From Nannocystis pusilla (GTDB lineage Bacteria > Myxococcota_A > Polyangia > Nannocystales > Nannocystaceae), in assembly GCF_026626665.1 (NCBI RefSeq), contig NZ_JAPNKE010000002.1:9196001-9260000 (forward strand): a DNA stretch of 64,000 nucleotides, in the 5' to 3' direction. Every line of letters starts with the position of its first letter. Position 1 is the stretch's first letter. The notes beneath the pieces were generated by a model, which saw only the letters and a program-made list of their open reading frames with translations, was not told the DNA's origin and made no database searches. Both the position numbers and the translations under genes were made by a program. This document shows positions 4,722 through 62,236 of this stretch, one piece after another.

Positions 4722-7679
4722 ATGGCGCGAGCTTCTTCTGCAGACGGCACCAAGACCGACGCCCCCACCAAGACCCGCAAGGTCGCCAAGGTGAAGGCGA
4801 AGGCGACCGAGGCGGCCACGCCGGCGAAGCCGAAAGCCAAACCGAAAGCCGCCGAGGGCGCCGCCAAGAAGGCCGCGCCGGCGAAGAAGGCGGCCAAGGC
4901 CGCGACGCCCAAGGCGGCCAAGGCGCCCAAGGCGACGAAGGCGCCCAAGGCGACGAAGGCGCCCAAGGAGCCCAAGGAAGCGCCGGAGGCCGCGCCCGAG
5001 GAGGGCGACGAGGCCGAGGGCGCGTCGGCGCGCGGGAAGCAGCTGGTGATCGTCGAGAGCCCCGCGAAGGCCAAGACGATCAACAAGTACCTCGGCTCGA
5101 ACTTCGTGGTGCAGGCGTCGGTCGGCCACATCCGCGACCTGCCGACCAAGTCGGAGAAGGGCGCCAAGCAGCCGGTGCCCGGGGTCGATCTCGAGCACGG
5201 CTTCCGCCCGACCTACGTGGTCCTGACCAATAAGAGCAAGACGGTCGCCGACCTCAAGCGGCTGGCCAAGAACGCCTCGCAGGTGTGGTTCGCAACAGAC
5301 TTGGACCGCGAGGGAGAGGCGATCGCCTGGCACCTCGCGGAGGAGCTGCGCATCCCGCCGCAGGCCGCCCGCCGGGTGGTGTTCAACGCGATCACGCAGC
5401 AGGCCGTGCACCGCGCGTTCGCCAACCCGCGGCCGATCGACGTCAACAAGGTCAACGCCCAGCAGGCGCGCCGCATCCTCGACCGCATCGTCGGCTACCA
5501 GGCGTCGCCGCTGCTGTGGAAGAAGGTGGCGCGCGGGCTGTCGGCCGGGCGCGTGCAGTCGGTCGCGGTCAAGCTGATCGTCGAGCGCGAGCGCGAGATC
5601 GCGGCCTTCGTCCCCGACGAGCGCTGGGAGGTCACCGTCCGTCTGTGCGTCGACCCGAGCCAGGCTGCGCCGCTGGCGTCGGCGTGGACCACGTTCCTCG
5701 CCACCGTCGACGAGAAGGGCAAGGGCCCGACCCTCAAGGCGCAGAACACCTGGATGTCGCAGCACGCGGCGATCGAGTCGGAGCTGGTCGAGCTCGGCGG
5801 CGAGAAGTTCTCGCTGACGGCCGCCTCGACCGCGCCGCGCGACCTGTCCGCCGACGTGTCCCGCGTGGTCGAGGCCGTCGGCCTGGTCGACGTCAAGGCG
5901 ACCGCGCGCGACAACCCGGAGGGCAAGGGCCCGCAGAAGACGCTGCGCACGATCACCGGCGCGCTCGACCCGGCGGCGCGCTACCGCGTCAAGTCGGTCG
6001 AGACCAAGCGGACCAACTCGCGCCCGCTGGCGCCGTTCATCACCTCGTCGCTGCAGATCGCCGCCGCCAACCAGCTCGGCTTCACGACCCAGCGCACGAT
6101 GCGGGCGGCGCAGCAGCTGTACGAGGGCATCGCCATCCCGGGCGAGGGCCAGGTCGGTCTCATCACGTACATGCGCACCGACGCGACCGCGCTGTCGGCC
6201 GAGGCGCTGACGCAGATCCGCGGCTTCATCGAGTCGCGCTTCGGCGAGCCCTACCTGCCCGAGAAGCCCAACATCTACACGTCGTCGAACAAGGACGCGC
6301 AGGAGGCCCACGAGGCGATCCGGCCGACCGACATCAGCCGCCGCCCGGAGGACCTGCGCGAGGCGCTGACCGACGAGCAGTTCAAGCTGTACTCGCTGAT
6401 CTGGTCGCGCACGGTGGCCTGCCAGATGACGCCGGCGCAGTGGGACGCGACCGCGGTGATGTTCGAGCGCGCCGACAAGCCGACCGGCGCGGTGGTCCGC
6501 GCCACCGGCCGCACGCTGGTGTTCGACGGCTTCCTCAAGGTGCTCGGGGTCCAGGCGACCGACGAGCAGACGCTGCCGACGCTCGGCGAGGGCCAGGCGT
6601 TCGGGACGTTCTCGATCGAGCCGCAGCAGAAGTTCCAGAGCCCGCCGCCGCGCTACACCGAGGCGTCGCTGGTCAAGACGCTCGAGGCCGAGGGCATCGG
6701 CCGGCCGTCGACCTACGCGTCGATCATCTCGGTCATCCAGGAGCGCAAGTACGTCGAGCAGCTCGACCGCCGCTTCTACGCCACCGACCTCGGCGAGGTC
6801 GTGACCGACAAGCTGGTCGAGGCGTTCAAGGACCTGATGGACGTCGGCTACACGCGGGCGATGGAGGCCCAGCTCGACGAGATCGAGGACAAGGGCGCCG
6901 ACTGGCAGAAGATGCTCGAGCGCTTCTACGGCGGCTTCCGCCGCTCGCTCGACATCGCCAGCGACACGATGACGCACGCCAAGGCCGAGGCGCAGCCGGC
7001 GATCTACAAGTGCCCGAAGTGCGGGTCGCCGACCTGCTACCGGTTCGGCAAGAACGGCCGCTTCCTGTCCTGCACGACCTACCCCGAGTGCGACTACGCG
7101 GCGCCGATCACCCGCGACGGCCGGCCGCTGCTGCCGGAGCGCGTCGACATGGTCTGCCCCGACGACGGCTCCGACATGGAGCTCCGCAACAGCCGCTTCG
7201 GCCCGTTCCTCGCGTCGGTCAACTTCCCGCACACGAAGTTCGTCATCAACCTCGACAAGAAAGAGGGCGTCAAGCTGCCGACGCCTCCGGCGCTCGAGGT
7301 CGACGTGCCGTGCCCGAAGTGCGGCGCGCCGCTCAACCTGCGCATGGGCAAGCGCGGCCCGTGGCTCGGCTGCTCGAAGTTCCCCAAGTGCCGCGGCCGC
7401 CTGGCCTGGACGGCCCTCGACGAGGAGAAGCAGGCGGCGCTCAGCAAGCAGCTGACCGCCCACGAGAAGGCCCACCCGCCCGTGGTGCTCAAGCGCCGCG
7501 ACGGCCGCGTGATCGCCGAGGGCACGCCGGTGGCGAAGCTGCTGATCCCGGGCGGGCTCGCCGAGCTCGAGATCCACCCGGACGCGCTCGCCGCCAAGAG
7601 CGACGGCGAGAACAAGCCCGCGACCGTGGTCGCGGCGCCCGCGGCCGCGCCCGAGAAGACGCCGGCGCTGCGCAACTGA
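4722..7679 (+). CDS. topA: DNA topoisomerase I (type IA) with lysine-rich N-terminal tail
   Basis: The 985-residue enzyme relaxes negative supercoils by transient single-strand cleavage. After about 105 residues of Lys/Ala/Pro-rich tail comes the TOPRIM domain (LVIVESPAKAKTINKYLG), then the catalytic core with the active-site tyrosine in TYMRTD (Tyr483). Two C-terminal zinc ribbons follow, with CPKC...C...C cysteine sets at about 766-800 and 866-895. The ATG at 4722 was preferred over GTG at 4713 and the further upstream frame because the basic tail begins there. Ordinary bacterial TopA is about 860 residues and lacks this H1-like tail, which may increase processivity or tether the enzyme to DNA. 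The tail contains an 18-bp tandem repeat. The gene is likely monocistronic, with a hairpin after the stop. Confidence 0.97.
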   Translation: MARASSADGTKTDAPTKTRKVAKVKAKATEAATPAKPKAKPKAAEGAAKKAAPAKKAAKAATPKAAKAPKATKAPKATKAPKEPKEAPEAAPEEGDEAEGASARGKQLVIVESPAKAKTINKYLGSNFVVQASVGHIRDLPTKSEKGAKQPVPGVDLEHGFRPTYVVLTNKSKTVADLKRLAKNASQVWFATDLDREGEAIAWHLAEELRIPPQAARRVVFNAITQQAVHRAFANPRPIDVNKVNAQQARRILDRIVGYQASPLLWKKVARGLSAGRVQSVAVKLIVEREREIAAFVPDERWEVTVRLCVDPSQAAPLASAWTTFLATVDEKGKGPTLKAQNTWMSQHAAIESELVELGGEKFSLTAASTAPRDLSADVSRVVEAVGLVDVKATARDNPEGKGPQKTLRTITGALDPAARYRVKSVETKRTNSRPLAPFITSSLQIAAANQLGFTTQRTMRAAQQLYEGIAIPGEGQVGLITYMRTDATALSAEALTQIRGFIESRFGEPYLPEKPNIYTSSNKDAQEAHEAIRPTDISRRPEDLREALTDEQFKLYSLIWSRTVACQMTPAQWDATAVMFERADKPTGAVVRATGRTLVFDGFLKVLGVQATDEQTLPTLGEGQAFGTFSIEPQQKFQSPPPRYTEASLVKTLEAEGIGRPSTYASIISVIQERKYVEQLDRRFYATDLGEVVTDKLVEAFKDLMDVGYTRAMEAQLDEIEDKGADWQKMLERFYGGFRRSLDIASDTMTHAKAEAQPAIYKCPKCGSPTCYRFGKNGRFLSCTTYPECDYAAPITRDGRPLLPERVDMVCPDDGSDMELRNSRFGPFLASVNFPHTKFVINLDKKEGVKLPTPPALEVDVPCPKCGAPLNLRMGKRGPWLGCSKFPKCRGRLAWTALDEEKQAALSKQLTAHEKAHPPVVLKRRDGRVIAEGTPVAKLLIPGGLAELEIHPDALAAKSDGENKPATVVAAPAAAPEKTPALRN
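4920..4967 (+). repeat. 18-bp in-frame tandem repeat in the topA tail
   Basis: The unit AAGGCGCCCAAGGCGACG is repeated at 4920 and 4938, with a partial third copy from 4956. It encodes a KAPKAT repeat. Slippage here would lengthen or shorten the basic tail without breaking the frame. Confidence 0.85.
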
Positions 7680-8188: not shown

Positions 8189-8494
8189 CAGTGCCTCCTC
8201 GATTCGTGCTCTGCCACGGCGCGTCGACGCCCTGGCCGCCGCCCCATTGTCATGAATGTAAACGTACCACGAGACAGAGGCCCGCCGGCGCAAGAGCCTC
8301 CCAAGTCCCAGCTTCTCGACCAGCCGATCCTCGTGTCTCGCGAACGAGGGCGGCGCGAAGGGCAGCGTGACGGCGAGTTCGCGCCTTGCCGCGGTAGGGG
8401 GCTCTGCCGTCGCGTGTCCGATCGAACATGCGTGATTGCACATGCCCGAAGCACCATGTCCGAGCGGCCATGCCTTTCAAAGCAGGCCACGAAG
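8189..8494. other. Intergenic region with palindrome cluster
   Basis: These 306 bases separate the ferredoxin start from the end of the phosphatase. The part from about 8440 to 8515 is dense in degenerate ACATG, CATGTCC and GGACAGG half-sites of the hairpin family, and one extends into the 3' end of the phosphatase. The ferredoxin promoter must lie in 8189-8440, but no clear -35/-10 pair was seen. Confidence 0.5.
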
Positions 8495-9006
8495 TTATGT
8501 CTTGACGGACAGGTCGTCGAGCAGCGCCGCGCAGGCGCGGGCGATCTGCCGGTACGCCGAGAGAAACCCTCGGGGCCGCCGCGCACGGGGTCGGGCACGT
8601 CGAGGTCGGCGCCGCGGGCGCTGGGGTCGGCGAGCGACGCGAGCAGGCGGATGCGCGCCTGTCGGTCCGTGCCGGCGATCGGGCCGAACGCGGAGCCGGC
8701 GGTGAGGCGGCGCAGCTCGGACGCGACCAGGCGGTCGAGCAGCAGGACCTCGTCGAATTCGAACAGGTCGTCGCGGCGCAGCAGGCGGCTCGAGTGGGTC
8801 AGCGCGAGGCCGTGGTCGGCGGCGACGCGGACGCTGCCGGCGTGGGCGGGGTTGCCGGCGTCGGCGGCCACGCCCGCGCTGTCGATGCGGAAGCGGCCCG
8901 CGACGCCGCGCTCGTCCGCGAGCCGCGTGAACACTGCGGCGGCCAGGGGCGAGCGGACGATGTTGGCGTAGCAGACGAACAGGACGCCGACCGGACGCGC
9001 GCTCAT
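8495..9006 (-). CDS. Low-molecular-weight protein tyrosine phosphatase (LMW-PTP), frameshifted
   Basis: The enzyme dephosphorylates protein tyrosine residues or arginine, or acts as an arsenate-reductase-like phosphatase. The P-loop C-x5-R-S is seen as CYANIVRS near residue 13, and the acid loop DVPDP is present. The frame breaks after GGPEGF at about 8553-8560. The expected C-terminal helix (YRQIARACAALLDDL) continues in the neighbouring frame to a TAA at 8495, which fits loss of one G. The joined product is about 170 residues, normal for the family. Its ATG overlaps the stop of the upstream lipoprotein gene as ATGA, so the two are translationally coupled. The P-loop second residue is Tyr with Ala in place of the usual Gly, a mild departure. 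Confidence 0.82.
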
Positions 9007-11438: not shown

Positions 11439-12716
11439 ATGTCCCGGAAGACATCCAAGTCCGTGTCCCTCGCCCTGGCGACGACGACGTTGCTCGCGGG
11501 CTGCAACCAGCTCGAGGCGATCGAGACCGAGGGCAGCGGCGGCGGCGGCGGCGGCGGCGTGCCCCCGGCCGTGCGCGAGGCGTTCGAGGCCAGCTGCGGC
11601 AAGGGCGGCTGTCACTCGCCCGGCGCGACCCTGCCGGTGCTCGCCGGCGACGAGCTCGACGGCATCCTCACCGGCGAGATCAACGGCGTGCCGCTGGTGA
11701 CGCTCGGCGACACCGCGAACTCGTACCTGGCGATCGTGATGCTGCCCGACGCGCTGCTGTCGAGCCTCGGCCTCACCCGCACGGTGCCGCGCATGCCGGC
11801 CGACAACGACTTCCTGAACCCGAACAACCAGGTGATCCTGTCGTGGATCGGCGGCGCCGAGTTCGAGGGCGGCGGGCCGGCCTCCACCGGCGGCGACACC
11901 GACACCGACACCGGCGGGACCGACACCACCGGCGAACCCGCCGAGCCGACCTTCGCCAACGTGCAGGCGATCATCGACGCCAGCTGCTCGTGCCACTTCT
12001 CCGCGCCGAGCGCCGCCAACGGCATGCTCGAGATGCCGATGGGCGACTCCTACGGGGCGCTGGTCGGCGTCAAGTCGCCCACGACCGACCTCAACCTGGT
12101 CGAGCCGAGCGACTCGGCGGCCAGCTACCTGTACCTCAAGCTGGCCGGCGGCTTCGAAGAGGCCGGCGGCGCGGGCACGCTGATGCCCCCGGTCATGGGC
12201 CTGATGGACGACGCGAAGGTCGCCCTGGTCAAGGCGTGGATCGACGCGGGAGCGATGGACAATCGAGGACATGGTCCCGGGGACATGGTCCCCGGGACAT
12301 GGACGAAGGCACAGGACACCGAGGACAGGGCCGATGGGACAGGAGCTCGAAGTGGTCCAGGCGCTCGTGTGCGTCGACGGGCGCGTCCAGGGCGTCTACT
12401 ACCGCGCCAGCGCGCAAGCCCGCGCCCAGGCCCTCGGCCTGCGCGGCTGGGTCCGCAACCTGCCCGACGGCCGCGTGGAGCTGCGCGCGCAGGGGACCCG
12501 CGCGAGGGTGGAGGCGCTGGTCGACTGGTGCCGCAAAGGCCCGCCCTCCGCCCGCGTCTCGTCGGTCGACGTCGACTGGGAACCAGTCGACTCCGAGATG
12601 CCGCTCAGCTTCATCGTGCTGCGCTGAGTCGCGGCGCGAGTTCGGGGCTCCCAAGTCGGGTTGGTGATCTTTCGCCCACAGCGCGTCGCCTGGACGACCT
12701 CGCGTGCTCGAGCTAG
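11439..12716 (+). CDS. Lipoprotein with two atypical cytochrome-like domains, reading frame overruns the next gene
   Basis: The start ATG at 11439 lies inside an ACATGTCC palindrome core, four bases after the cytochrome-barrel gene. The lipobox is LLAGC (Cys22), followed by a glycine run. Two domains resemble the haem domains of the upstream gene but with altered motifs: SCGKGGCHSPG has C-x4-CH instead of C-x2-CH, and the second has SCSCH. Both end in the same SYLYLKL and MPP/MPAD blocks. The recognisable protein ends at about residue 273 (WIDAGAMDN, near 12258). The frame then runs through a palindrome cluster and 110 codons of the acylphosphatase gene before stopping at 12716, so the natural stop seems to have been lost. 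It is probably a surface partner of the upstream protein. Confidence 0.72.
   Translation: MSRKTSKSVSLALATTTLLAGCNQLEAIETEGSGGGGGGGVPPAVREAFEASCGKGGCHSPGATLPVLAGDELDGILTGEINGVPLVTLGDTANSYLAIVMLPDALLSSLGLTRTVPRMPADNDFLNPNNQVILSWIGGAEFEGGGPASTGGDTDTDTGGTDTTGEPAEPTFANVQAIIDASCSCHFSAPSAANGMLEMPMGDSYGALVGVKSPTTDLNLVEPSDSAASYLYLKLAGGFEEAGGAGTLMPPVMGLMDDAKVALVKAWIDAGAMDNRGHGPGDMVPGTWTKAQDTEDRADGTGARSGPGARVRRRARPGRLLPRQRASPRPGPRPARLGPQPARRPRGAARAGDPREGGGAGRLVPQRPALRPRLVGRRRLGTSRLRDAAQLHRAALSRGASSGLPSRVGDLSPTARRLDDLACSS
12265..12302. repeat. Triple GGACATGG palindrome unit
   Basis: Three direct copies of GGACATGG, separated by TCCCGG and TCCCCGG, form overlapping inverted repeats. They sit exactly where the lipoprotein coding sequence should end. 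The unit belongs to the window-wide hairpin family. Confidence 0.75.
12334..12627 (+). CDS. acyP: Acylphosphatase
   Basis: The 97-residue enzyme hydrolyses acyl phosphates. The two diagnostic blocks are visible: GRVQGVYYR with the phosphate-binding Arg24, and GWVRNLPDG with the catalytic Asn42. Length and motif spacing are normal. The ATG at 12334 is preferred over the open frame from 12271, which lies inside the palindrome cluster. The whole gene is nested in a different frame of the over-long upstream lipoprotein reading frame. Confidence 0.93.
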   Translation: MGQELEVVQALVCVDGRVQGVYYRASAQARAQALGLRGWVRNLPDGRVELRAQGTRARVEALVDWCRKGPPSARVSSVDVDWEPVDSEMPLSFIVLR

Positions 12717-20836: not shown

Positions 20837-21880
20837 TCAGGGGCGCGAGATGTCCAGCGTCTGCATCAAGTTGTAGATGTGCGCGCGCGTGAGCGCGAGC
20901 CGGCGCGCGGCCTCGGCGACGTTCCAGTTGCTGTCCTCGAGGGTGCCGCGGACCAGCTGGGTCTGGAAGCGCCGCAGCGCCTCGCGGTAGTTGAGCGGGC
21001 CTGCACTTTCGGACCTGTCCTCGCGGTCAGGGAACAAGTGGCGCGTCTCGACCTCGCGCGCGTCCTCGCCGGCGGCGCGGATGACCGCGGCCTCGACCGC
21101 GTTGGCGAGCTCGCGGATGTTGCCGGGCCAGCTCGCGGCCTGGGCGGTGACGAGCGTCCATTGGGACAGGCGCAGCGGCGGCAGGCGGTGGCGCACGCAG
21201 GCGCGGACGCAGAAGTGCTGGGCGAGCTCGGGGATGTCGTCGCGCCGCTCGGCCAGCGAGGGCACGCGGATCGGGACCACGTGGAGGCGGTAGTACAGGT
21301 CCTCGCGGAACTCGCGGCGGGCGACGCGGGCCTTGAGGTCGCAGTTGGTGGCGGCGATCACCCGCACGTCGGCGGCGCGCGGGCGGCTGGCGCCGAGCGG
21401 GTAGTACTCGCGCGACTGCAGCAGCTGCAGCAGCTTGGCCTGCGCCGGCAGCGAGAGCTCGGCGATCTCGTCGAACAGGAGGGTGCCGCCGCGGGCGGCG
21501 AACACCTTGCCCTCGACCGCCTTGACCGCGGTCGAGTGGGCGCCCAGGGCCGCGCCGAACAGCTCGCTCTCGACGAGGTTGTCGGGCAGGTTGGCGCAAC
21601 TGAGCTCGACGAAGTTGCCGGCGGCGGCCCGCGGGCTCGAGGCGTGCATCACGCGGGCGACGTGGGTCTTGCCGGTGCCCGAGGGGCCGGTGAGCAGGAC
21701 CGAGACGTCGAGGGGGGCCAGCAGCGAGAGCTGGCGCAGCAGCTCGATCATCGGCGGCGAGCGGCCGATAAGGTCGTCGGACCGGAGCGTGCTGCGGAAG
21801 CGGTGCGTCGGGTCGCGCTTCTCGCCCGGCGAGAACAAGGGCCCTATCTCCCCGTGAGCCTCGGGATGCGCGCTGTCCAT
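20837..21880 (-). CDS. AAA+ regulator of the sigma-54 activator family with altered GAFTGA loop
   Basis: The 347-residue protein has Walker A GPSGTGKT, the ESELFG helix, Walker B GGTLLFDEI, the R-finger region and a Fis-type helix-turn-helix at the C-terminus (VAEAARRLALTRAHIYN). The loop that contacts sigma-54, normally GAFTGA, reads GAHSTA here. It therefore may not drive open-complex formation with sigma-54 and could act as a DNA-binding ATPase with another target. There is no sensor domain, only about 40 residues before the AAA+ module. The start could be the ATG at 21880 or at 21937. The latter is inside an AGGACATGTCCT palindrome. The regulated genes are not evident; the diiron oxidase lies downstream in the same direction. 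Confidence 0.88.
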   Translation of the reverse strand: MDSAHPEAHGEIGPLFSPGEKRDPTHRFRSTLRSDDLIGRSPPMIELLRQLSLLAPLDVSVLLTGPSGTGKTHVARVMHASSPRAAAGNFVELSCANLPDNLVESELFGAALGAHSTAVKAVEGKVFAARGGTLLFDEIAELSLPAQAKLLQLLQSREYYPLGASRPRAADVRVIAATNCDLKARVARREFREDLYYRLHVVPIRVPSLAERRDDIPELAQHFCVRACVRHRLPPLRLSQWTLVTAQAASWPGNIRELANAVEAAVIRAAGEDAREVETRHLFPDREDRSESAGPLNYREALRRFQTQLVRGTLEDSNWNVAEAARRLALTRAHIYNLMQTLDISRP

Positions 21881-25625: not shown

Positions 25626-25669
25626 GGAGCATGTTCTCAAGGACATGCTCCCGAGAGCATGTCCTCAGG
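25621..25669. terminator. Nested hairpin covering the stop codons of two convergent genes
   Basis: An outer stem CCTGAGGA (25621-25628) pairs with TCCTCAGG (25662-25669). Inside it, GAGCATGT (25627-25634) can pair with ACATGCTC (25643-25650), and another CATG half-site follows. The PhoD TGA (25623-25625) and the opposing TGA (25665-25667) are both in the outer arms. It belongs to the palindrome family and should terminate in both directions. Confidence 0.75.
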
Positions 25670-29340: not shown

Positions 29341-29398
29341 CCGGCTGACCTCCGAGGTTACCTTCGGGACATGTCCTCTCGAACATGATGGAAAGACC

Positions 29399-32487: not shown

Positions 32488-32592
32488 ATGGGCAGAGCGC
32501 TTCGTCCGTCCGCTGCTCGAAGAAGTGTCATGATCCTGTCTCGCGGGACAGGCGCTCGGCGAGGCGGCGCCACAGCGGGCGCGGGGCGATGA
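32488..32592 (+). CDS. Possible 34-residue leader or relic peptide
   Basis: ATG at 32488 is preceded by AGGAG with a seven-base gap and gives a 34-residue basic peptide beginning MGRALRPSAARRSV. It runs antisense to the end of the ATP-grasp gene and across a palindrome. It could be the 5' remnant of a lost gene that kept its promoter. Evidence is only the ribosome site and the upstream promoter-like pair. Confidence 0.25.
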   Translation: MGRALRPSAARRSVMILSRGTGARRGGATAGAGR

Positions 32593-33529
32593 AGCTCAGG
32601 CCGGAGAACTGGGGGTCGCCCGGTTCGATGACGATCCACGCGCCGGACTCGAGCTGGGCGATGTCGAGGGACAGCAGCGGGGCGTCGAGGCGGGCGGCCG
32701 CGCGGCGGGCCAGCGCCAGGACCTCGGCCTCCTCGGCGGGGGACAGCGCCACGAAGTCGTGGAAGTACGGCCAGTAGTAGCCGTGAGCCAGCGGCTCGCC
32801 GCGATAAAGGAAGACGCGGTACTCGCGGGCGATCGGGACGTCGGTGGCGGCGACGCGGTGATGGCGGAGGGGAGCGAGGGTCCGCACGATCGCCCGGCCG
32901 CGGGAGTGAAACGGGCTGCGCAGCACGGCAGCCACGCGCTCGCGCAGCTCGGGGATCGTCGTAGCGACGCAGTGGCGCCAGCCGAGGTGCTTGCGCGAGA
33001 GGACGGCGCCCTTGACGAAGGCGGGCAGGCCGGCGACGGCGGCGGCGGCCTCGATGTCACGGAGATCGGTGACGACGACGCTGGTGGGAGTGAGCCCGGC
33101 GAGCCGCGGGTAGGCGCGGTCGAACTCCATCACCTGCAGGTGCGCGTCGGGGTCGTTGACGAGGTCGAGGCCGCGGGCGCGCAGGGCGGCATACACGGCG
33201 CGATAGGTGGCAGGTTCGGGGATCGTGCCGATCCACACGGCTGGCTCGCGGACGGGACGCATCGCCAGGGCGGCGATCGGGCCCAGCAAGTCGCCGCGGT
33301 GGTCGGCGTCTGGCGGCAGATGCAACGAATCGAAGCCGGCGGCCACGGCGGCGCGCGTGGAGGCGACGATGTCATCGCCGTCCTCGGGCGGCGGGTCCGG
33401 CGCCTGCGTCAACAGCAGCACGGGTTGAAAACTTATCAGCGCGGACGGCGAAGCGCGCAGTTCCTCTTCGGGAGACCGAGCGGCCGCGGCTCCATGACGA
33501 GAGATGCTCGGCGTGCGCGACCTCGTCAT
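32528..33529 (-). CDS. ATP-grasp protein of the R2K type (DUF4343-like)
   Basis: The 333-residue protein has ATP-grasp features: a lysine in a GAVLSRKHLGW segment, the EYRVFLYRGEPLAHGYYW block with the R2K-style arginine, and a C-terminal metal-binding IEPGDPQFSGL. R2K ATP-grasp ligases are proposed to modify peptides or proteins, often in phage or RiPP contexts. The N-terminal 130 residues resemble the usual R2K pre-ATP-grasp region. Its last codons (RLSRETGS) are encoded by the palindrome CCTGTC-TCGCG-GGACAGG, of which an identical 22-bp copy occurs near 57930. The start at 33529 is uncertain. Confidence 0.72.
   Translation of the reverse strand: MTRSRTPSISRHGAAAARSPEEELRASPSALISFQPVLLLTQAPDPPPEDGDDIVASTRAAVAAGFDSLHLPPDADHRGDLLGPIAALAMRPVREPAVWIGTIPEPATYRAVYAALRARGLDLVNDPDAHLQVMEFDRAYPRLAGLTPTSVVVTDLRDIEAAAAVAGLPAFVKGAVLSRKHLGWRHCVATTIPELRERVAAVLRSPFHSRGRAIVRTLAPLRHHRVAATDVPIAREYRVFLYRGEPLAHGYYWPYFHDFVALSPAEEAEVLALARRAAARLDAPLLSLDIAQLESGAWIVIEPGDPQFSGLSFIAPRPLWRRLAERLSRETGS
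32531..32552. repeat. 22-bp palindromic repeat, exact copy at 57928
   Basis: TGATCCTGTCTCGCGGGACAGG occurs here and, base for base, at 57928-57949. CCTGTC and GACAGG form the arms. Here it is inside the end of a coding sequence; at the other site it is intergenic. Confidence 0.9.
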
Positions 33530-33555: not shown

Positions 33556-35433
33556 GTGAGGCGTGTCGACTCTGGTCCATTCGCTCGTGGCTCTCCGCGG
33601 CTGTCCTCTCCGGGCCTCGTGATCGTCGGTGACGACGGCGCGACGCGGGCCCGCAGCTTCGGCGAGCTGGTGGTGGCGATCGAGGGCTTCGCGGCGCGGC
33701 TGGTGTCGCGGGGGATCCGCCGCGGCGAGCGAGTGGCGATCGCGGCACCTGACCCCGAGTACATGGTCGTTGCGACACTCGGGGCGCTGCGCGCCGGGGT
33801 GGTGCCGGTGGTGCTCCCCGATCCGTCTGGCCGCTCGCCGGAGGTGTGGCGCGCCGAGGCGACGGAGGTGATGCGCGCGACCGAGGCGCAGCGGGTGATC
33901 CGTCCGTCGACGCGTGGATCGCTGCCGCCGCTCGGCGAGGTGCGCGAGCAGCTGATCGACGACCTCGGCGAGCACCCGCTGGGCCCGGTGTTCCTGGCGC
34001 CCGCGGCACTTTAAGGGGACGATCTGGCGCTGCTCGTCTGTACGACGGATCGCACCGGGACCGGGCAGGTCACCAGCTACACGCACGCGGCGCTGGCGGC
34101 CGCGGCCGACGCGGCGCTGGCGGAGACGCGATCGCCCGAGGCGGGCGACAAGGTGCTGGCGTGCGCCGGCCTCGACCGCTGCTTGATCGCGGCAGTGCTG
34201 GCGCCGCTGCGCCGCAAGGTGCCGTTCGTGGTCCCGAGACCCGCAGTCCGTGATGCGGTCCGCTGGCGACGAATGATCGACGCGCTCGGCGTGACGGTGG
34301 CGATCGCGGAGTCGGCGCTGGCAGCGAGCGAGGAGCAGGCCGAGCCGTCGCGCGTGCGAGTGTTCGGGACCGGCGGCGAGAAAGTGCAAGCAGCGGCGGC
34401 CGAGTCGGCAGTCGCGAATCAGGCTCAGGAAAAGCTTATGGGACGTCATGAACAGATCGTGGCGAGCACTGCATCGAGCGCGGGGGCTTCGGGCCTCGGC
34501 GGGCCGGGCGGGCGTAGCGAGCAGGACATGAGCGTCACGGCGAGCGAAGCGACGGCGGCGCTCGCGGGACCTCGCGGACCGGATGCAAACAGCGGCGCGC
34601 CGGCGAGCGAGCGGGCGGAGCCGGTCCGCGTGCTCGCTGGACCTCGCGGACCGGATGCAAGCAGCGGCGGGCCGGCGAGCGAGCGGGCGGAGCAGCTCCC
34701 CGCGCTCGCTGGACCTCGCGGACAGGATGCAAGCAGCGGCGCGCCGGCAAGCGAGCGGGCGCAGCAGCTCCGCGTGCTCGCTGGACCTCGCGGACAGGAT
34801 GTGAACAGCGCGCCGGCGAGCGAGCGGGCGGAGCAGCCCCGCGTGACGAAGGGGCCGGTCCTGGGAGAGGTCGTGGTCCGCGAGGGCGCGACGGTGCTCG
34901 GCGGATCGAAGGGGCGAGACGTGCTGTCGCTGGTCGGCGCGGCCTTGCGACCGCAGGACGTGGGGGGCGAGTCGCTCGAGCGGACGGCGAAGGTCGGCGG
35001 AGCGACTGTCCGTAAGGACATGTCCTACCCGACATTCGCTTCGGCGGTCGAGGTGGGGGGCGCGGCGCCTCGCGCCGAGGTCGGGCTCGCGGCGAACGAC
35101 GACGCGATCGTGGTGCAGGGCTGCAGCTACGACCCGCAGCCGATCGAGCGCGAGGCGGCGCGGGTGCCGGGGATCTGCGCCGGCCAGGTGATCGCGCTGA
35201 CGCGCCCGGGCAAGCTCAGCGACGAGCTCGTGGTGGTGGCGGAGGGCCGACCGGTCGATCGGGTGGTGTTGAACACGATGGCCGCGACCCTGCGCAGGCG
35301 GATCCAGGCGGCCCTCGGGCTGCAGGTCGCGGCGCTGGTCCAGGTCCCGGTGGGCGCCCTGCCGCGGACCGTCGGCGGCGAGCTGCAGCGGGCGGCCGCG
35401 CGAGCGCTGTACGCCAGCCCGCCGGGGGCTTGA
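33556..35433 (+). pseudogene. Degenerate adenylate-forming enzyme (fatty-acyl-AMP ligase-like) with internal stop and repeat block
   Basis: The first 150 codons from the GTG at 33556 resemble the start of an AMP-binding enzyme (SFGELVVAIEGFAARLVSRGIRRGERVAIA, PEYMVVATLGALRAGVVPVVL). A TAA at 34012-34014 interrupts, but the same frame continues with the TSYTHAALAAAA region after it. The motif region from residue about 255 is replaced by low-complexity sequence holding four 72-bp repeats (34558-34842). The last 110 residues again match the C-terminal domain of fatty-acyl-AMP ligases (VVQGCSYDPQPIEREAARV, PVGALPRTVGGELQRAAARALY). The conserved ATP-binding YTSGTTGxPK and GEI motifs are not visible. 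It is probably a decayed gene, although a repurposed repeat protein plus stop-codon error cannot be ruled out. Confidence 0.65.
34558..34842 (+). repeat. 72-bp tandem repeat, four copies
   Basis: Copies begin at 34558, 34630, 34702 and 34774; the last has lost three bases. Each encodes 24 residues with LAGPRGxDAxSGxPASERAE. The copies differ by a few substitutions, so the array is not brand new, and all length changes keep the frame. Confidence 0.9.
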
Positions 35434-35505
35434 CTGGACGTCGCGCTCGCGCAGGCGGGCGATCGGGCAGAGTCGGCGTCGGGGGCTCCGGCGAGCGAGC
35501 CGATA

Positions 35506-35547
35506 TGGTTTAAAGAACATGCCCTGAAAGGCATGTCCTCAAAACCA
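35506..35547. terminator. Two-tier hairpin over the stop of the leftward outer-membrane protein
   Basis: TGGTTT (35506-35511) pairs with AAACCA (35542-35547), and inside it ACATGCC (35517-35523) pairs with GGCATGT (35530-35536). The TGA of the leftward gene (35539-35541) lies between the two stems. It separates two convergent genes. Confidence 0.75.
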
Positions 35548-36812
35548 TCCGAACTCGAGCATCACGGTGCCCACGGGTCCGCCGAGGTTGGCCGGGCCGG
35601 TCCAGGTGCGGGCGGCGACGAGGCGCCAGCCGAGGGCGAGGTGCAGGCGGACGATGGGGGCGAGGACGATGCGGAGGCCGGCTCGCGGCTCGCCGACGAA
35701 GAAGGCGGTCTTGTCGGCACAGCGGCCGTTCTCGGGGTTCTGCACGCAACCGCCGCCGCCGCCGAGCAGGCCGCCGAGCGTGCCGGCGACCCGCTTGCCG
35801 CGGACGTAGGCGACGTCGACCACTAGGCCGCCGTAATTGATGTTGATCCGGGTGGCCGCGCCGCGGGCGAACGGCCCGGCGTCGACGGGATTGAGCAGCC
35901 ACTGCAGCGAGGCGCCGATGGTGAGCCGCTGCAGGATGTTGATGCCGCCCTCGAGGCCGACGAAGGCCGCGAACGCGCCGTTCAGGCCGGACAGGCGCAG
36001 GGCGGGGCCGCCGTAGCCGCTGACCTTCGGGCGCGGATCGGGGCCCCACCAGCGCGGGCGCGTGGGGGGCGGGGAGGCGACAGGGGACGGCGAGGCGGTG
36101 GAGGACGTCGCGGGGGCGGTCGACTCGGGAGGCGGTGACGTGACGGGTTGGGGTGCGGCGGCGTCGACGGGTGACGGCTGGGGTTCGGCGACATCGGCGG
36201 GCGCCTCGGTGACGGGCCCGGGCTCGGTGATCGCGTCGGGTGACGAGGTCGCGGGCGCGGATGTCGACGGCGCGGGCGCGGGTGACGAGGTTGCGGGCGC
36301 GGGTGACGAAGTTGCGGGCGCGGCGGTCGATGTTGCGGGCGCGGCGGTCGACGTCGCGGGCGCGGACGGTGGGGGCGAAGTCGAGGGCGCGGCGGTCGAG
36401 GTTGCGGGCGTGGATGTCGAGGTCGCGGGCGCGGCGGTCGAGGTCGAGGGCGCGGCGGTCGAGGTTGTGGACGCGGATGACGAGGTTGCGGGCGCGGATG
36501 TCGAGGTTGTGGGCGCGACGGTCGAGGTCGCGGGCGCGGCGGTCGAGGTCGGGGGCGCGGAGGATGAGATCGCGGGTGTCGATGCTGGAGTCGCGGGCGC
36601 GGCGGTCGAGGTCGGGGGCGCGGAGGATGAGATCGCGGGTGTCGATGCTGGAGTCGCGGGCGCGAGCGGGGTGCCGACTTCATGGCCGCGGAGGTCGAGG
36701 TCGCGGGGGCCGATGGACGTGTAGCGATCGCGGTGGCGTCGACGGGTGACGAGGTCGCGCTCGACTCGGGGGCTGCGGCCGCGAGTCCGAGCGCGAGGAG
36801 GGGGGCGTACAC
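35539..36812 (-). CDS. Outer-membrane beta-barrel-like protein with long Ala/Thr/Ser/Pro repeat linker, frameshifted
   Basis: The C-terminal 165 residues show alternating strands ending in an aromatic residue (VMLEFGWF), typical of an outer-membrane barrel, with one cysteine pair (CVQNPENGRC). Before that lie about 200 residues of Ala/Thr/Ser/Pro repeats (STAAPATSTAAP). A signal peptide (VYAPLLALGLAAAAPESS) is found only in the neighbouring frame, starting at about GTG 36812. A one-base break near 36670-36690 is therefore needed to join signal and body. The linker DNA is a chain of in-frame repeats, including a perfect 63-bp duplication. The function is unknown. The protease gene begins 61 bases away on the other strand. 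Confidence 0.62.
36538..36663. repeat. Perfect 63-bp tandem duplication inside a longer repeat tract
   Basis: The unit starting GGCGGTCGAGGTCGGGGG at 36538 is repeated without change at 36601. It sits at one end of a tract (about 36240-36663) built from 9-15-bp GTCGAGGTCGCGGGC-like units. Sequence identity points to a recent slippage event. Confidence 0.9.
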
Positions 36813-36873: not shown

Positions 36874-38205
36874 ATGCGTACACTCGGGGCAGCGGTGGTC
36901 TGCGGGCTCGTGGCGCTGGTCGCGGGTGCGGCGTTCGCCGGTGAGTTGGCGGACGCGAGCCCGCCGCCGCCGCAGCCGATCTTCGGCGGCGAAGAGGCGG
37001 GCGAGTGCGACTTCCCGAGCGCGGTGGCGATGCTCGACGCCAGCACCGAAGGGTTCTTCTGCACCGGCTCGCTGGTGCACCCGAGCGTGGTCGTGTTCGC
37101 GGCCCACTGCATGGACCCGCAGACGTCGTGGGCCGTGCCCGGCAGCGTGATGTTCGGCGAAGACGTCGCGGCGCCGGTGCGCCAGGTGCCGGTGACCGAG
37201 TGCGCCACGCACCCGCAGTGGGACCCGAACGCGACGGTGAACGACCTCGCGTTCTGCAAGCTCGCGCAGCCGGTCCCCGAGGTGCCGCGGGTGCCGCTCA
37301 TCATGGGCTGCGAGGTCGACCCGCTGCTGAACTCGCAGGTCACGATCGTCGGCTTCGGCGCGACGAATGCCGTGCTCGACCCCGAGGGCAACCCGCTGCC
37401 CACCGGCGGCGGCCGCAAGCGGTTCACCACCCAGACGGTCATCGAGGTCTCGCTCGCCAACAACGACATCGTGATGGTCGGGCCCGAGCACGGCGGGTGC
37501 TTCGGCGACTCCGGCGGGCCGGCTTACTTGCGCATGGGCGACGGCACGTGGCGGCTGCTCGGCGCGGCCTCGACGCTGCACCTCGGCGATCAGTTCCCGG
37601 GGCCCGGCGAAGAGGTCTGCGGGTTCGGCACGGTGTACGAGATGTTCTGGCCGCACATGCAGTGGCTCGAGGAGGCCGCGGGCGTCGACCTGTCGCCGTG
37701 CTTCGACACTGCGGGCAACTGGACGCCCACGGCCGAGTGCGGCGGCTTCCCCGGCGACTTGATGGATCCGCAGAGCGCGTGGAGCGACGGCTGCCGGAGC
37801 GCGCAGAGCGGAGGCTGGAGCGCCATCTGCGGCGAGCCGTTCAGCCAGGGGCCGTTCCCGGGGCCCGAGCCGGAGCCGGAGCCCGAACCCGAGCCCGAGC
37901 CCGAGCCGGAACCGGAACCGCCGCCTCCCGAGCCGGAACCGCCGCCGCCGGAGCCCGAGCCCGAGCCTGAACCCGAACCGCAGCCGCAGCCGCAGCCGCA
38001 ACCGCAGCCCGAGCCGCCGGGGCCGATCGACCCGACCGGCGACACCGGCGAGGAGGACAGCGGCGACGAGGCGAGCGCCGGGGCCGACGGCGGGGAGCTG
38101 GCCGAGCGGGGCTGCTCCTGCACTTCGGGACAGCCTGGCCTTCGGGACAGCTCGTGGCTGCTCGGCGGCCTGCTGCTGCTGGCGCGCCGGCGGCGAGGAC
38201 GATGA
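36874..38205 (+). CDS. Trypsin-like serine protease with Pro-Glu spacer and MYXO-CTERM tail
   Basis: The 443-residue protein has a signal peptide and then a chymotrypsin-fold domain with the triad His78 (FAAHC), Asp124 (NDLAF) and Ser213 (GDSGGP). Several cysteine pairs suit a secreted enzyme. After about residue 325 comes a long PEPEPE/PQPQ spacer and an acidic segment. The last 31 residues are a MYXO-CTERM signal: GCSC, a hydrophobic helix (SWLLGGLLLLA) and RRRRGR. MYXO-CTERM proteins are thought to be processed and sorted to the cell surface or released. Two CTTCGGGACAG units of the palindrome family are inserted in frame between GCSC and the helix. The stop overlaps the next start as ATGA. 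Confidence 0.93.
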   Translation: MRTLGAAVVCGLVALVAGAAFAGELADASPPPPQPIFGGEEAGECDFPSAVAMLDASTEGFFCTGSLVHPSVVVFAAHCMDPQTSWAVPGSVMFGEDVAAPVRQVPVTECATHPQWDPNATVNDLAFCKLAQPVPEVPRVPLIMGCEVDPLLNSQVTIVGFGATNAVLDPEGNPLPTGGGRKRFTTQTVIEVSLANNDIVMVGPEHGGCFGDSGGPAYLRMGDGTWRLLGAASTLHLGDQFPGPGEEVCGFGTVYEMFWPHMQWLEEAAGVDLSPCFDTAGNWTPTAECGGFPGDLMDPQSAWSDGCRSAQSGGWSAICGEPFSQGPFPGPEPEPEPEPEPEPEPEPEPPPPEPEPPPPEPEPEPEPEPQPQPQPQPQPEPPGPIDPTGDTGEEDSGDEASAGADGGELAERGCSCTSGQPGLRDSSWLLGGLLLLARRRRGR

Positions 38206-39795: not shown

Positions 39796-39864
39796 TTCTT
39801 CGAGATCACCGGGCTGCTCCCTGTCTCGGAGAGCATGTTCGGATCGACATGTCCATTCGGACAT

Positions 39865-39895
39865 AAAAAAAGCGACAGGCCCGAGAGCCTGTCGC
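39865..39895 (-). terminator. Intrinsic terminator for the nitrite/sulfite reductase gene
   Basis: On the minus strand a perfect 9-bp stem (GCGACAGGC at 39872-39880 with GCCTGTCGC at 39887-39895) is followed by seven U residues (A-run 39865-39871). It lies 26 bases after the stop at 39922. A palindrome of the GACATGTCC type adjoins it at 39823-39862. Confidence 0.88.
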
Positions 39896-59031: not shown

Positions 59032-60404
59032 TCACTGCTCGACGCAATAGAGGCGCAGCTTCAGCGAGCAGTCGACGGCGGGGCAGCCTTCGGTCCAGCC
59101 GAGGTTCGTCGCGTGGACGAGGCCGGCGACGGCGGTGCCGCTGCCGAGCAGCCAGCCGCTGCACGGGTCGCCGGGGAAGGGGCTGCCGGTGGCGCGGGTG
59201 TGGGTCCAGGCGAGGTCGGCGGGTTCGTTGCAGGCGAGGCCGCCGGTGAGCGCGGCGCCGTCGGCGGTGTGATCGATGGCGTGGGCGAGGTCGCCGTCGA
59301 CGAGGTCGAGCCAGTCGGCGGCGACGGGCGTCAGCGAGCCGGGCAGGACGTAGGGCGCGTCGTGGCGCGCGAAGTCGGCGGCCGGCGGCGCGCCGGGGAA
59401 GGTCAGCCAGGCGCGGTACGTGCCCGGCAGCTTGGCGTCCTTGGCCGATTCTGGCAGTGGTCGTCGGCGGCGGCGACGTTGCCGAAGGCGCCGGAGAAGG
59501 TCTCGGCGGTGACGAACACGAAGTAGGCGTCGCGCTCGCAGGTGGGCGAGCAGCCGTCATCGGCGACCTGGTTGCCGTCGTCGCAGGCCTCGCCGGCGAC
59601 GAGCAGGCCGTCGCCGCACTCCTCGAGCTGGCAGTCGGGCGTGCAGCCGTCGCCGGAGACGAGGTTGCCGTCGTCACACGTCTCGGTCAGCGCGAGCACG
59701 CCGTCGCCGCAGACGTTGAGCAGGCACTTGTCGGTGCAGGTCTTGTCGGCGACCTGGCACTCCTCGCCGGGCTCGGGGTCGGTGTTGGCGACGCAGCTGG
59801 CGAGGGCGCAGCTGACGTCGCACGGCGGGTCGGCGTCGGCCGGCTCGCAGGCCTCGCCGGGGCCGACGAAACCGTCGCCGCAGGCCGCGAGGGTGCAGGC
59901 GGTGGTGCAGGCGGCGGTGTCGGCGTTGTGCGGGCCGTGGTCGCAGATCTCGCCGTCCTGCAAGATGCCGTCGCCGCAGCCGGTCTCGCGGCAGTTGTGG
60001 GCGCAGGCGTCGCCGTCGTCGCGGTTGCCGTCGTCGCACTGCTCGTCGTCCTGGTTGACGATGCCGTCGCCGCAGCGCACGAAGGTGCAGTCGGGCAGGC
60101 AGTCGTCGCCGCCGTCGCAGGCCTCGGTCGGGGCGAGGAAGCCGTCGCCGCAGGCCGCGACGGTGCAGTCGGTCTTGCAGATCGCCCAGTCGCCGTTGAG
60201 CGGGCCGGCGTCGCACTGCTCGCCCGCCTGCAGCAGGCCGTCGCCGCACACCGGCGCGGGGCCGGTGGTCGGATCGCCGGTGGTCGTGGCGGTCGGATCG
60301 CCGCCGGTCTGGCCGGGCAGAGGGCCGTCGCCGGGCCCGAGGTCGGAGAAGCAGCCGGCGAGGGCCAGCGCGGCGAGGAGAGGAGAGAATGTCCGAAGAG
60401 ACAT
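59032..60404 (-). CDS. DUF4215 cysteine-rich repeat lipoprotein 1, frameshifted
   Basis: The protein has lipobox LAGC (Cys18) and then about eight DUF4215 repeats, each with CGDG, CDDGN and C-x3-C blocks. A C-terminal lectin-like domain follows (AYFVFVTAETFSGAFG ... TNLGWTEGCPAVDCSLKLRLYCVEQ). Its ATG at 60404 and the codons for MSLRTF come from a palindrome of the repeat family. One base is missing at about 59445-59460, between HCQN and the expected SAKDAKLPGTY. The corrected length is about 457 residues. It is a shorter paralog of the gene upstream. DUF4215 proteins are probably surface exposed; the role is unknown. Confidence 0.85.
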
Positions 60405-60418
60405 GTGCTTTCGGACAT
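60389..60418. repeat. Palindrome over a start codon
   Basis: ATGTCCGAA (60389-60397) pairs with TTCGGACAT (60410-60418) around a central AGACATGTGCT. The ATG of the downstream gene (60402-60404 on the minus strand) is in the centre. It would fold into a hairpin that hides the ribosome start. Confidence 0.8.
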
Positions 60419-60475
60419 GGCAGAGAGGACCGGCGGCGAGGCGCGCGCTCGCCGGGCCGTGACGGGGGCCGCCGG

Positions 60476-62236
60476 TCACGACGGCTGCTCGAAGCAGTAG
60501 ATGCGGGCCGACAGGTTGCAATCGACCTCGCCGCAGACATCGGTCCAGCCGCCGTCGTCACGCTTGACGCTGCCGGCGAGGGCGGTCATCTGCATGTCGC
60601 CGCTGGCCCACTTGGAGCAGTGGTTGCCGAAGCCGTTGTCGGCCTTGATGCCGGTCCAGACCACGTGGTTGCCGTCGCAGTCCGAGCCGCCGGTCAGCTC
60701 CATGTTGGTGTCGGTGACGTCGATGCCGGTGATGATGTCGGCGTCGACCAGGTCGGTCCAGCTGTCGGCGATCTTGGCGGTGGTGGTGTTGCGCAGGGTG
60801 TAGTAGGGGACCGAGCTCTTGTGGAAGTTGTTGCCGGGGCCGACGGCGCCGTCGCCGAGCCAGGCCTTCCACTTGTGGCCCTTGATCTTGAGCCAGCCCA
60901 TGTCGCTGGCGGCGAGGTCGGCACAGCGGGCGTCGGCGGCGGCGATCGAGTTGAAGTCGTTGTTGCCGGGGATGTAGAGCTTCGAGCTGACGAACACGAG
61001 GAAGCCGTTGCGGGTGCAGTCGGTCTTGCACGTGCCCTTGGCCGGGTCGCTGTTGTTGTGGGCGCCGTGGTCGCACTCCTCGGTGGAGTCGGCGTGCAGC
61101 CAGCCGTCGCCGCAGGAGGCGGGCTCGCAGTTGTCGAGGCAGTCGTCGGTCTGGTCGTCGTTGCCGTCGTCGCAGTCCTCGACGCCCGTGTAAAGGAAGC
61201 CGTCGCCGCAGGTGTTGCTCTTGCAGTCGTCGAGGCAGCCGTCGGTCTGGACGTCGTTGCCGTCGTCGCAGTCCTCGCCGTCCTGGACGATGCTGTCGCC
61301 GCACACCGGGTTCTTGCAGCCGTTGGTGCACGCGTCGTCGTCGACCTGGTTGCCGTCGTCGCACTGCTCGACGCCCATGTGCGGCTTGCCGTCGCCGCAC
61401 ACGTTGTCCTTGCAGCCGAGGGTGCAGGCGGCGTCGTCGGCGTTCTGGGTCACGCCGTTGTCGCACTCCTCGCCGCTCTGGACGATGCTGTCGCCGCACG
61501 CCGGGTTCTTGCAGGCGTTGCTGCAGCCGTCGTCGTTGACCTGGTTGCCGTCGTCGCACTCCTCGCCGGGCGACTTGATGCCGTCGCCGCAGCCGGGCGG
61601 GCCGCAGCTGTTGGGGCAGTCGTCGTCGTCGACCTGGTTGCCGTCGTCGCAGTGCTCGTTGCCGTCCCACACCAGGCCGTCGCCGCACACGGCCATCTTG
61701 CAGCCGTCGACGCAGGCGTCGGTGTTCAGGTCGTTGCCGTCGTCGCACTGCTCGACCCCGACGTGGGTGAAGCTGTCGCCGCAGGTGGCGTTCTTGCAGG
61801 TGCTGAGGCAGGCGTCGGTCTCGTCGGCGTTGCCGTCGTCGCACTCCTCACCGGCGTCGGTCATGCCGTTGCCGCACGAGGCCAGCTGACAGTTGACGCA
61901 GCCGTCGACCGCACCCTCGCAGTCCTCGCCGGCGCCGACGTAGTTGTCGCCGCACACGTTGTAGGCGCAGCTCGGCGTGCACACGCCGTTGCCGTTCGGC
62001 CCCTGGTCGCACTCCTCGCCGGCGTCCTGCTGATAGTTGCCGCACAGGTCGCCCGGCATGGTCGTGGTCGTCGGCTCGGTGGTGACGTCGCTCGTGGTCG
62101 TGGACGTCGTCGTGCCGGTGGTCTCGGTGCCCGCCTGGGTCGTCGGGGGCTGCTCGCCGAAGCCAGAGCTGTCGAAGGTGCAGCCGGCCAGCGCGATGCA
62201 GGAGAACAGCAGGGCCGCGGCGTTGCGGGTGATCAT
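60476..62236 (-). CDS. DUF4215 cysteine-rich repeat lipoprotein 2
   Basis: The intact 586-residue protein has lipobox LAGC (Cys19) and a Thr-rich linker. About eleven DUF4215 repeats (CGDGxxxxGEECDDGN...C..C) follow, then a C-terminal domain of about 190 residues (GFLVFVSSKLYIPGN ... DVCGEVDCNLSARIYCFEQ) like that of its neighbour. The repeated CDDGN loops suggest calcium binding, and the C-terminal domain resembles secreted lectin-type folds. The start at 62236 has AGGAG ten bases upstream. It lies 71 bases upstream of its paralog on the same strand. Confidence 0.94.
   Translation of the reverse strand: MITRNAAALLFSCIALAGCTFDSSGFGEQPPTTQAGTETTGTTTSTTTSDVTTEPTTTTMPGDLCGNYQQDAGEECDQGPNGNGVCTPSCAYNVCGDNYVGAGEDCEGAVDGCVNCQLASCGNGMTDAGEECDDGNADETDACLSTCKNATCGDSFTHVGVEQCDDGNDLNTDACVDGCKMAVCGDGLVWDGNEHCDDGNQVDDDDCPNSCGPPGCGDGIKSPGEECDDGNQVNDDGCSNACKNPACGDSIVQSGEECDNGVTQNADDAACTLGCKDNVCGDGKPHMGVEQCDDGNQVDDDACTNGCKNPVCGDSIVQDGEDCDDGNDVQTDGCLDDCKSNTCGDGFLYTGVEDCDDGNDDQTDDCLDNCEPASCGDGWLHADSTEECDHGAHNNSDPAKGTCKTDCTRNGFLVFVSSKLYIPGNNDFNSIAAADARCADLAASDMGWLKIKGHKWKAWLGDGAVGPGNNFHKSSVPYYTLRNTTTAKIADSWTDLVDADIITGIDVTDTNMELTGGSDCDGNHVVWTGIKADNGFGNHCSKWASGDMQMTALAGSVKRDDGGWTDVCGEVDCNLSARIYCFEQPS

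Follow-up and report, generated by a model that had tools for sequence, protein, structure and literature searches.

A fatty-acyl-AMP ligase-like gene with degenerate catalytic motifs and a repeat-bearing middle in Nannocystis, and the 14-bp-spaced palindromic sites found through it

The FAAL-like locus and its tandem array

The window, i.e. the whole stretch of 64,000 nucleotides that was analysed, is part of a genome of 11.99 Mb in two contigs (G000 in what follows) and contains a gene similar to fatty-acyl-AMP ligases (FAALs), placed between a divergent and a convergent neighbour. The features recognized at the locus are given below; the scores of the palindromic sites are those of the weight matrix described in the third section.

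32528..33529, minus strand: divergent neighbour, an R2K-clade ATP-grasp protein (Pfam PF14243, E 1e-16)
33563..34011, plus strand: N-terminal part of the FAAL-like gene (Pfam PF00501 positions 17-98, orthologs)
33759..33768, no strand: site of the 14-bp family in the N-terminal part, GTACATGGTC, score 17.7; position shared by five of six species, G006 being the exception
34012..34014, plus strand: in-frame TAA, where the orthologs have F-K or F-R (ortholog comparison; possibly an assembly error)
34015..34320, plus strand: degenerate P-loop region and next part of the large domain (alignment to orthologs and FAAL-type relatives; Pfam match below cut-off; dN/dS 0.22-0.92)
34321..35100, plus strand: low-complexity stretch in the place of the second half of the large domain of N. 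pusilla DSM 53165 (ortholog comparison; predicted disordered)
34561-34845, plus strand: 72-bp tandem array of four units (TRF, unit alignment, shuffles)
35016..35025, no strand: site of the 14-bp family, GGACATGTCC, score 30.8; G004 and G005 have a similar site at the corresponding position
35101..35433, plus strand: C-terminal subdomain, strongly constrained, ending with PRTVGGELQR and then TGA (dN/dS 0-0.37; folded in the models)
35501..35552, no strand: array of four 14-bp sites (scores 11.0, 33.9, 29.9, 12.6) between the convergent ends of the FAAL-like gene and the next gene

The gene is read as two open pieces in the same frame, 33556-34011 and 34015-35430, split by the TAA. The GTG at 33563 opens the reading VSTLVHSLVALRGC, which is common to the orthologs, and a one-base shortfall of the window assembly relative to G004, the closest relative, was read by eye near 33610; at the place of the TAA the same relative has three extra bases (CTT TTT AAA). 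The AMP-binding family PF00501 was matched by the first piece at profile positions 17-98 (E 3e-11) and by the second at positions 180-306 with an E value of 8.5e-4, below the curated family cut-off. Thus, the ends of the protein are recognizable, as stated in the preliminary description of this DNA, with the qualification that Pfam identifies AMP-binding pieces only, the C-terminal part being matched by the orthologs and by FAAL-type relatives. The flanking genes are common to all six species bearing an ortholog. The R2K neighbour was matched beside the FAAL-like gene in each of them, at full length or nearly so in four, partially in G003, and partially and with 41% identity in G006; in G004 the match changes frame after its first 34 residues, owing possibly to a second shift or to a window start set too far upstream. 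The R2K-clade ATP-grasp protein is a possible functional partner of the degenerate ligase.

TRF reported one 72-bp array at 34560-34845 (four copies, score 446). No array scored above 87 when the entire window was dinucleotide-shuffled 20 times, so that the four repeats first described are real. In codon register the units start at 34561, 34633, 34705 and 34777 and are 72, 72, 72 and 69 bp long, and any two of them differ by 6-8 positions, in agreement with the slight divergence already observed. Units 1-3 encode LAGPRGxDxxSGxPASERAxxxxx, and the 24-residue period holds for these, unit 4 being one residue shorter; six of the ten columns that vary among units 1-3 fall at second codon positions. 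The frame is indeed open through the repeats, but this is weak coding evidence since five of the six reading frames are open there, and the gene is broken upstream by the TAA and the shift. With 53 tandem-array rows in the window, one of them a 96-bp array with a score of 443, an array inside a gene is not unusual here. A search of the genome for the 72-bp unit gave no second good copy, the remaining matches covering 44-48 bases at 82%, and a search of a plasmid collection with the unit gave no matching record; capture of a minisatellite from elsewhere is therefore unsupported. The possibility that the unit is a copy of the 14-bp site was also rejected (best site score within the array 2.8, threshold 10), and the array is therefore not accounted for by the site family.

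Other repeats were observed nearby. A minisatellite of 20 copies of a 21-bp unit (36244-36669) lies in the N-terminal part of the convergent neighbour, where it encodes a stretch rich in Ala, Pro, Ser and Thr, and the congeners carry their own tandem repeats near that place. A minus-strand array at 61160-61877 (7.5 copies of 96 bp) encodes a Cys-rich repeat similar to CGDGIVQGGEECDDGN, as read by eye from the consensus, which presumably resembles other myxobacterial Cys-rich repeats. A tRNA-Arg called by ARAGORN at 37848-37943 on the minus strand, located in the Pro/Glu-coding repeat of a trypsin-like gene, is probably spurious.

Motif loss and replacement of the core in the orthologs

Orthologs were sought in 59 genomes including the window's own, seven from Nannocystis and 52 from outside the genus. 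Close orthologs were found in six of the seven Nannocystis genomes, namely that of the window and G002-G006, of which G002 is N. poenicansa FL3, G003 is N. pusilla DSM 53165 (the only strain meant by N. pusilla here, and treated as a species distinct from that of the window), G004 is the sister of the window genome and G005 is N. exedens DSM 71. Only weak FAAL-type matches were obtained from G001 (88% complete) and from 22 of the 52 genomes outside the genus. The completeness of the window genome (80%) is the lowest of the six that bear an ortholog, the others being 90-91% complete. Of 14 loci with FAAL-type relatives translated from other genomes, six were usable, five of them full-length and one truncated.

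FAALs are characterized by a P-loop of the form (T/S)SGS(T/S)xxPxGV, by the Asp of a TGD motif that precedes the hinge and by a catalytic Lys within PKTSSGK. The N. pusilla ortholog is full-length, with an AMP-binding match over residues 26-388 (profile 17-378 of 384, E 1e-30) and a match to the E. coli FAAL 3pbk over residues 34-520 (E 1e-39). In spite of this, the canonical P-loop is missing both in the window (VCTTDRTGTGQVTSYTH) and in N. pusilla (QFSGGGQVALRATPYSH, reading SGGGQVALRATP in the full-length protein), while it is intact in all five full-length FAAL-type relatives. The TGD Asp is lost: N. pusilla has TGL and the other five middles have no counterpart of the motif, which is TGD in four of the full-length relatives and SGD in the fifth (L017). 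The catalytic Lys is replaced as well, the sequence being PRTVGGE in the window and PRTSSGE in N. pusilla; it is kept in all six readable relatives, with SSGK in the five full-length ones. The N. pusilla protein being full-length yet degenerate in motifs that are intact in the relatives, catalysis appears to have been lost before the core. From this pattern of motif loss we infer that the FAAL-like gene is catalytically dead and would no longer support acyl-AMP formation.

A continuous AMP-binding domain is present in N. pusilla and absent in the window, G002 and G006, where the match stops at profile positions 306, 303 and 269, respectively, of 384 (after residue 283 in G002 and 256 in G006). 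All species but N. pusilla, i.e. five of the six, lack the second half of the large domain and have in its place 189-260 residues of low complexity in which Ala, Gly and Ser abound. The content in ILVFWYMC residues of these middles is 18-22% as opposed to 30% in N. pusilla, and their third-position GC is 0.80-0.89 as opposed to 0.94-0.98 in the C-terminal part of the same genes. Replacement of the catalytic core by repeats, as originally proposed, is therefore correct for the part downstream of the P-loop; the P-loop region proper (34015-34080) is present, albeit degenerate, and the array fills only 285 of the 780 bases of the replaced stretch. All six middles are multiples of three bases in length. 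The five low-complexity middles are mutually alignable, which suggests one origin. On the other hand, a single-gene tree rooted with G001 places G005 outermost, with support of 30-54 outside the G000 and G004 pair, and so leaves room for two independent losses of the core. In a tree from 18 genes (22,119 columns) G006 joins G003 with a support of 90 and G002, G005 and the G000 and G004 pair are nested successively with a support of 100, the midpoint falling, by our own arithmetic and with a root that is not well supported, on the G003 branch.

Tandem repeats within the middle are different in different species. The four 72-bp units of the window correspond to a single unit in G004, to 2.0 copies of a 72-bp unit in N. 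exedens and to 2.9 copies of a 66-bp unit in N. poenicansa, and no array was reported in the middle of G006 or N. pusilla. Since the core loss is common to five species and G004 has one unit, the comparison of the orthologs indicates that core loss predates the four-unit state. The window units differ from the G004 unit at 7-9 positions and among themselves at 6-8, so that the expansion would be about as old as the split between the two species; contraction or loss to one unit in G004 is also possible. The N. exedens unit shares with that of the window the 72-bp period and the peptide PRGQD, from which an older common origin of the repeat is possible, but the best DNA match between them spans 20 bases with a score of 25-26 against a shuffled maximum of 31, as compared to 104-109 for the G004 unit. 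In N. poenicansa, moreover, an array of 2.3 copies of a 144-bp unit was observed at and beyond the end of the FAAL-like gene (L026, reverse complement, 5549-5886), and this unit includes a palindromic site of the CATGTCC type.

A family of palindromic sites with a 14-bp period

The peptide DMS recurs in the middles, where it is encoded by GGACATGTCC or near variants, and by following this linker motif a family of palindromic sites was found in which GGACATGTCC-N4 is iterated with an exact 14-bp period. Sites of the family are present in the middle of all six orthologs, and the 66-bp unit of N. poenicansa holds two adjacent ones. Exact copies of GGACATGTCC number 636-952 in six Nannocystis genomes, 55 in G001 and 0-69 in the 52 genomes outside the genus, with 0-8 copies of the reversed control over all 59 genomes. 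The counts of a two-unit pattern are 534-1007 for the six species, 40 for G001 and 0-10 for the 32 other genomes searched, and a stricter pattern found 132 times in the window genome gave no match in 139 other genomes of the phylum, none of them Nannocystis. Thus, the family is essentially confined to Nannocystis among the genomes searched. The exact decamer also occurs in published papers, several of them on p53, which is taken as a coincidence.

A site weight matrix was trained on 800 kb and used with a score of at least 10 for arrays and spacing and of at least 14 as a strict threshold. At the latter, 635 sites were found in the 800 kb and 2 in the reversed sequence. A distance of exactly 14 bp separates successive sites scoring at least 10 in 454 cases; the second most frequent distance, 36 bp, was observed 10 times. 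The 800 kb contain 411 arrays of 1-9 units, 158 of which are single sites, corresponding to approximately 500 arrays per Mb and, by extrapolation, to about 6000 per genome. Examples of arrays located in the window with the matrix (no strand) are the following.

8424-8516
12267-12346
25627-25664
29367-29390
39831-39868
60385-60422

Most of the 13 window sites examined keep their place in at least one other species (those at 21011, 32357 and 39845 are poorly kept), and recent insertion of mobile elements is for this reason unsupported. Over a 204-kb block compared with G006 and G002, conservation is 0.91-0.98 for the CATG core, 0.82-0.88 for the flanks and 0.71-0.87 for the spacers. Within coding sequence CATG is fully conserved in 34/36 cases in sites and in 264/336 elsewhere in one comparison (P 0.013), and in 33/34 and 267/339 in the other (P 0.004); outside coding sequence the values are 35/41 and 74/112 (P 0.014), and 31/38 and 83/114, the last difference not being significant (P 0.19). 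In the same block 65 of 176 sites lie inside called coding sequence.

Arrays are more frequent in convergent than in divergent gaps. In two syntenic blocks, with orientation taken from our own rough gene calls, they were found in 10/12 (G002) and 11/16 (G006) short convergent gaps, in 1/12 and 1/9 divergent gaps and in 6/27 and 7/26 tandem gaps. In independent samples of G000 and G002 the corresponding figures are 9/14 and 9/22 for convergent, 0/9 and 2/17 for divergent and 9/34 and 18/57 for tandem gaps, so that the G002 sample (9/22 versus 18/57) indicates a small excess over tandem gaps.

Covariation between arms was analysed in 665 adjacent pairs, in which one of ten positions (8-3) gave a signal (mutual information z 6.7) and the others were at the level of shuffles; the signal at 8-3 is absent in 217 isolated doublets (z −0.6), and 81 doublets of G002 gave a z of 3.8 at position 9-2. 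With covariation at the level of shuffles for nine of ten positions and no Rfam family matched in a search of the window, a function of the sites as RNA hairpins or terminators is unsupported. A polar motif oriented with replication was rejected, the sampled stretches exhibiting a mild strand bias that broadly follows base skew, and so was, for G002, a site-free chromosomal domain, suggested by apparent gaps of about 1.5 Mb with the strict pattern, since normal numbers were found in G002 at 7.56, 8.22 and 8.88 Mb.

The closest known parallel considered is that of REP/BIME elements, which, according to PMC2817692, are short palindromes present in hundreds of copies or more per genome and often forming regular arrays; the Nannocystis sites likewise exceed the 100 palindromic copies per genome by which such elements are defined. 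Differently from REP/BIME elements, the Nannocystis sites have a symmetric 10-bp unit, a strict 14-bp period, no accompanying match to a Y1 transposase, a frequent location in coding sequence and little paired change in the arms. The Y1 transposase family (Y1_Tnp) was matched in none of the seven Nannocystis genomes and in 5 of 14 control genomes. The likeliest reader of the sites is a putative DNA-binding protein. A tentative proposal, to which we assign somewhat less than an even chance, is that thousands of arrays centred on GGACATGTCC and its CATG core, with exact 14-bp period, position conserved both within and between genes and preference for convergent over divergent gaps, form an undescribed genus-specific DNA code read by a putative DNA-binding protein that could polymerise on the arrays, the core of the dead ligase being one place where sites became protein. 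The site family is more novel than the array, and in a search of open-licence papers neither palindromic sites of this kind in Nannocystis nor a FAAL devoid of catalysis was found to have been described.

Selection, predicted structure and interpretation

Selection was estimated as dN/dS (Nei-Gojobori) over 15 species pairs. The values obtained were 0-0.37 for the C-terminal subdomain (105 codons) and 0.11-0.46 for the first N-terminal piece (53 codons); the second N-terminal piece (74 codons, 0.43-1.15) and the P-loop piece (102 codons, 0.22-0.92) are weakly constrained. Between the window and G004 there is no amino-acid change in the 105 C-terminal codons at a dS of 0.106. Thus, the absence of purifying selection expected of a pseudogene is not what is found for the C-terminal subdomain.

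The AlphaFold model of the G006 protein, built with an alignment of eight sequences, has block mean pLDDT values of 74-94 up to residue 250 and of 79-94 over residues 461-560, with residues 271-454 below 50. In the model of the 472-residue piece of the window the C-terminal subdomain is confidently predicted and the array has block means of 25-34, so that the middle is predicted to be disordered in both models made. Most of the top Foldseek hits of the G006 model are FAALs, with TM values of about 0.4 and an rmsd of 13-23, a poor superposition attributable to the middle, which does not fold.

With FAALs (3pbk of E. coli, mycobacterial FadD23/FadD32) the Nannocystis proteins share the sequence similarity over residues 34-520 in N. 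pusilla and the Foldseek hits of G006; they differ from them in the lack of the ATP-binding loop, of the TGD Asp and of the catalytic Lys and, in five cases, of the second half of the large domain. A precedent for a non-catalytic leftover adenylation piece that is kept structurally is the pseudo-adenylation subdomain of keto-acid NRPS modules (6ulw), which resides, however, within a multidomain synthetase around a ketoreductase, whereas the Nannocystis protein reads as free-standing, with two ends joined by a disordered stretch. Coding minisatellites and expanding disordered linkers consist of in-frame tandem units with species-specific copy number. The array described here conforms to this description (in-frame units, four copies in the window and one in G004), with the difference that the linker is located where part of an enzyme core used to be.

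The reading that we consider the most likely is that of a retired FAAL that has become a non-catalytic two-part scaffold with a disordered, fast-evolving and repeat-expanding linker. As a first step, the ATP-binding loop, the TGD Asp and the C-terminal catalytic Lys were lost from a protein whose fold was still complete, and this state can be read in the sequence of N. pusilla. The Ala/Gly/Ser-rich stretch would then have replaced the second half of the large domain in an ancestor of the other five species; the replacement itself is shown, and its single origin is probable. As a third step, seen in three species, lineage-specific tandem repeats grew in the replaced stretch, the four-unit 72-bp array being the version of the window species, most likely generated by local slippage or unequal exchange. 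What would remain in the end is a partial domain at the N-terminus and a small subdomain at the C-terminus, joined by the disordered linker of 189-260 residues, and such a two-part protein would probably work by binding a partner. According to PMC11837247, which also describes a FAAL-specific insertion, the FAAL C-terminal domain helps to dock the acyl carrier protein. By analogy, a carrier protein may be taken as the first candidate partner, with rather low confidence. The array itself is an ordinary local expansion within an unusual, partly dissolved and apparently dead enzyme.

The alternative with most in its favour, though unlikely, is that the gene is a pseudogene decaying in the window species, and perhaps in G004, and that the array is a minisatellite evolving without selection in dead DNA. 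The frame is open in four species and broken in two, by the TAA at 34012 and the one-base shift near 33610 in the window and by one shift in the N-terminal part of the gene in G004, where the frame offset of the R2K neighbour may be added; moreover, the prevalence of second codon positions among the variable columns argues that the unit peptide is not being conserved. Lesions in both copies make relaxed selection in this pair possible. However, the window assembly seems rich in indel errors: with genes called by our own ORF and GC rules, 4/23, 3/20 and 5/24 conserved neighbour genes were frame-broken in it relative to three reference species, whereas the five other assemblies had no frame-broken gene among the 19-30 examined in each comparison (none of 22-27 for G004, whose FAAL-like gene was not flagged). 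Thus, the stop and the shift of the window may be errors and are weak evidence of decay, and claims from the window that are based on frame require care; the shift in G004 is not accounted for by this argument. The open frame in four species and the unchanged C-terminal codons relative to G004 also weigh against decay. The flanks are largely kept across species, again against decay, although the repeats vary from species to species and two copies of the gene, those of the window and G004, are interrupted. Of the two explanations offered in the preliminary description, that of a minisatellite captured by a decaying gene is accordingly disfavoured, with no second good copy of the unit and with conserved, selected ends, and that of a spacer in a repurposed scaffold is favoured, as a stretch predicted to be disordered instead of a folded repeat protein.

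It appears improbable that the C-terminal subdomain is a separate small protein translated from a start inside the low-complexity stretch, which would make the upstream stop irrelevant. The strong constraint on this part and the ATG at 34438, preceded by AGGA at seven bases (noted by eye in the window), are consistent with it, but the position of the suggested start is not conserved across species, and all six middles maintain the N- and C-terminal parts in the same frame, which a separate start would not need.

We are still more doubtful that the middle, relieved of constraint on its protein, is kept mainly as DNA carrying the palindromic sites, the low-complexity peptide being a by-product. 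The occurrence of sites, often encoding DMS, in the middle of all six orthologs and the pair of sites in the N. poenicansa 66-bp unit would agree with this; against it, the window's 72-bp unit does not itself qualify as a site, the simple-mismatch count of sites in G005 is not above shuffles (P 0.18) and, with about one array every 2 kb everywhere, one per 0.5-0.8 kb is unremarkable. Lastly, a folded repeat domain for mechanical or binding work, suggested by the regular 24-residue period, is scarcely credible in view of the pLDDT values of 25-34 throughout the array, of the G006 and N. pusilla orthologs without a reported array and of the dissimilar array of N. poenicansa.

Returning to the ligase, probably a retired one, the six Nannocystis orthologs suggest one series from enzyme to scaffold, in which the loss of catalytic residues is followed by the dissolution of part of the core into a disordered linker and then by repeat expansion, while the outer pieces are still under selection, and the role of a dead adenylation protein becomes testable in a cultivable species. 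If the palindromic sites do represent a binding code, this would be a signal new to myxobacterial genomes (about 12 Mb) and distributed over the whole chromosome.
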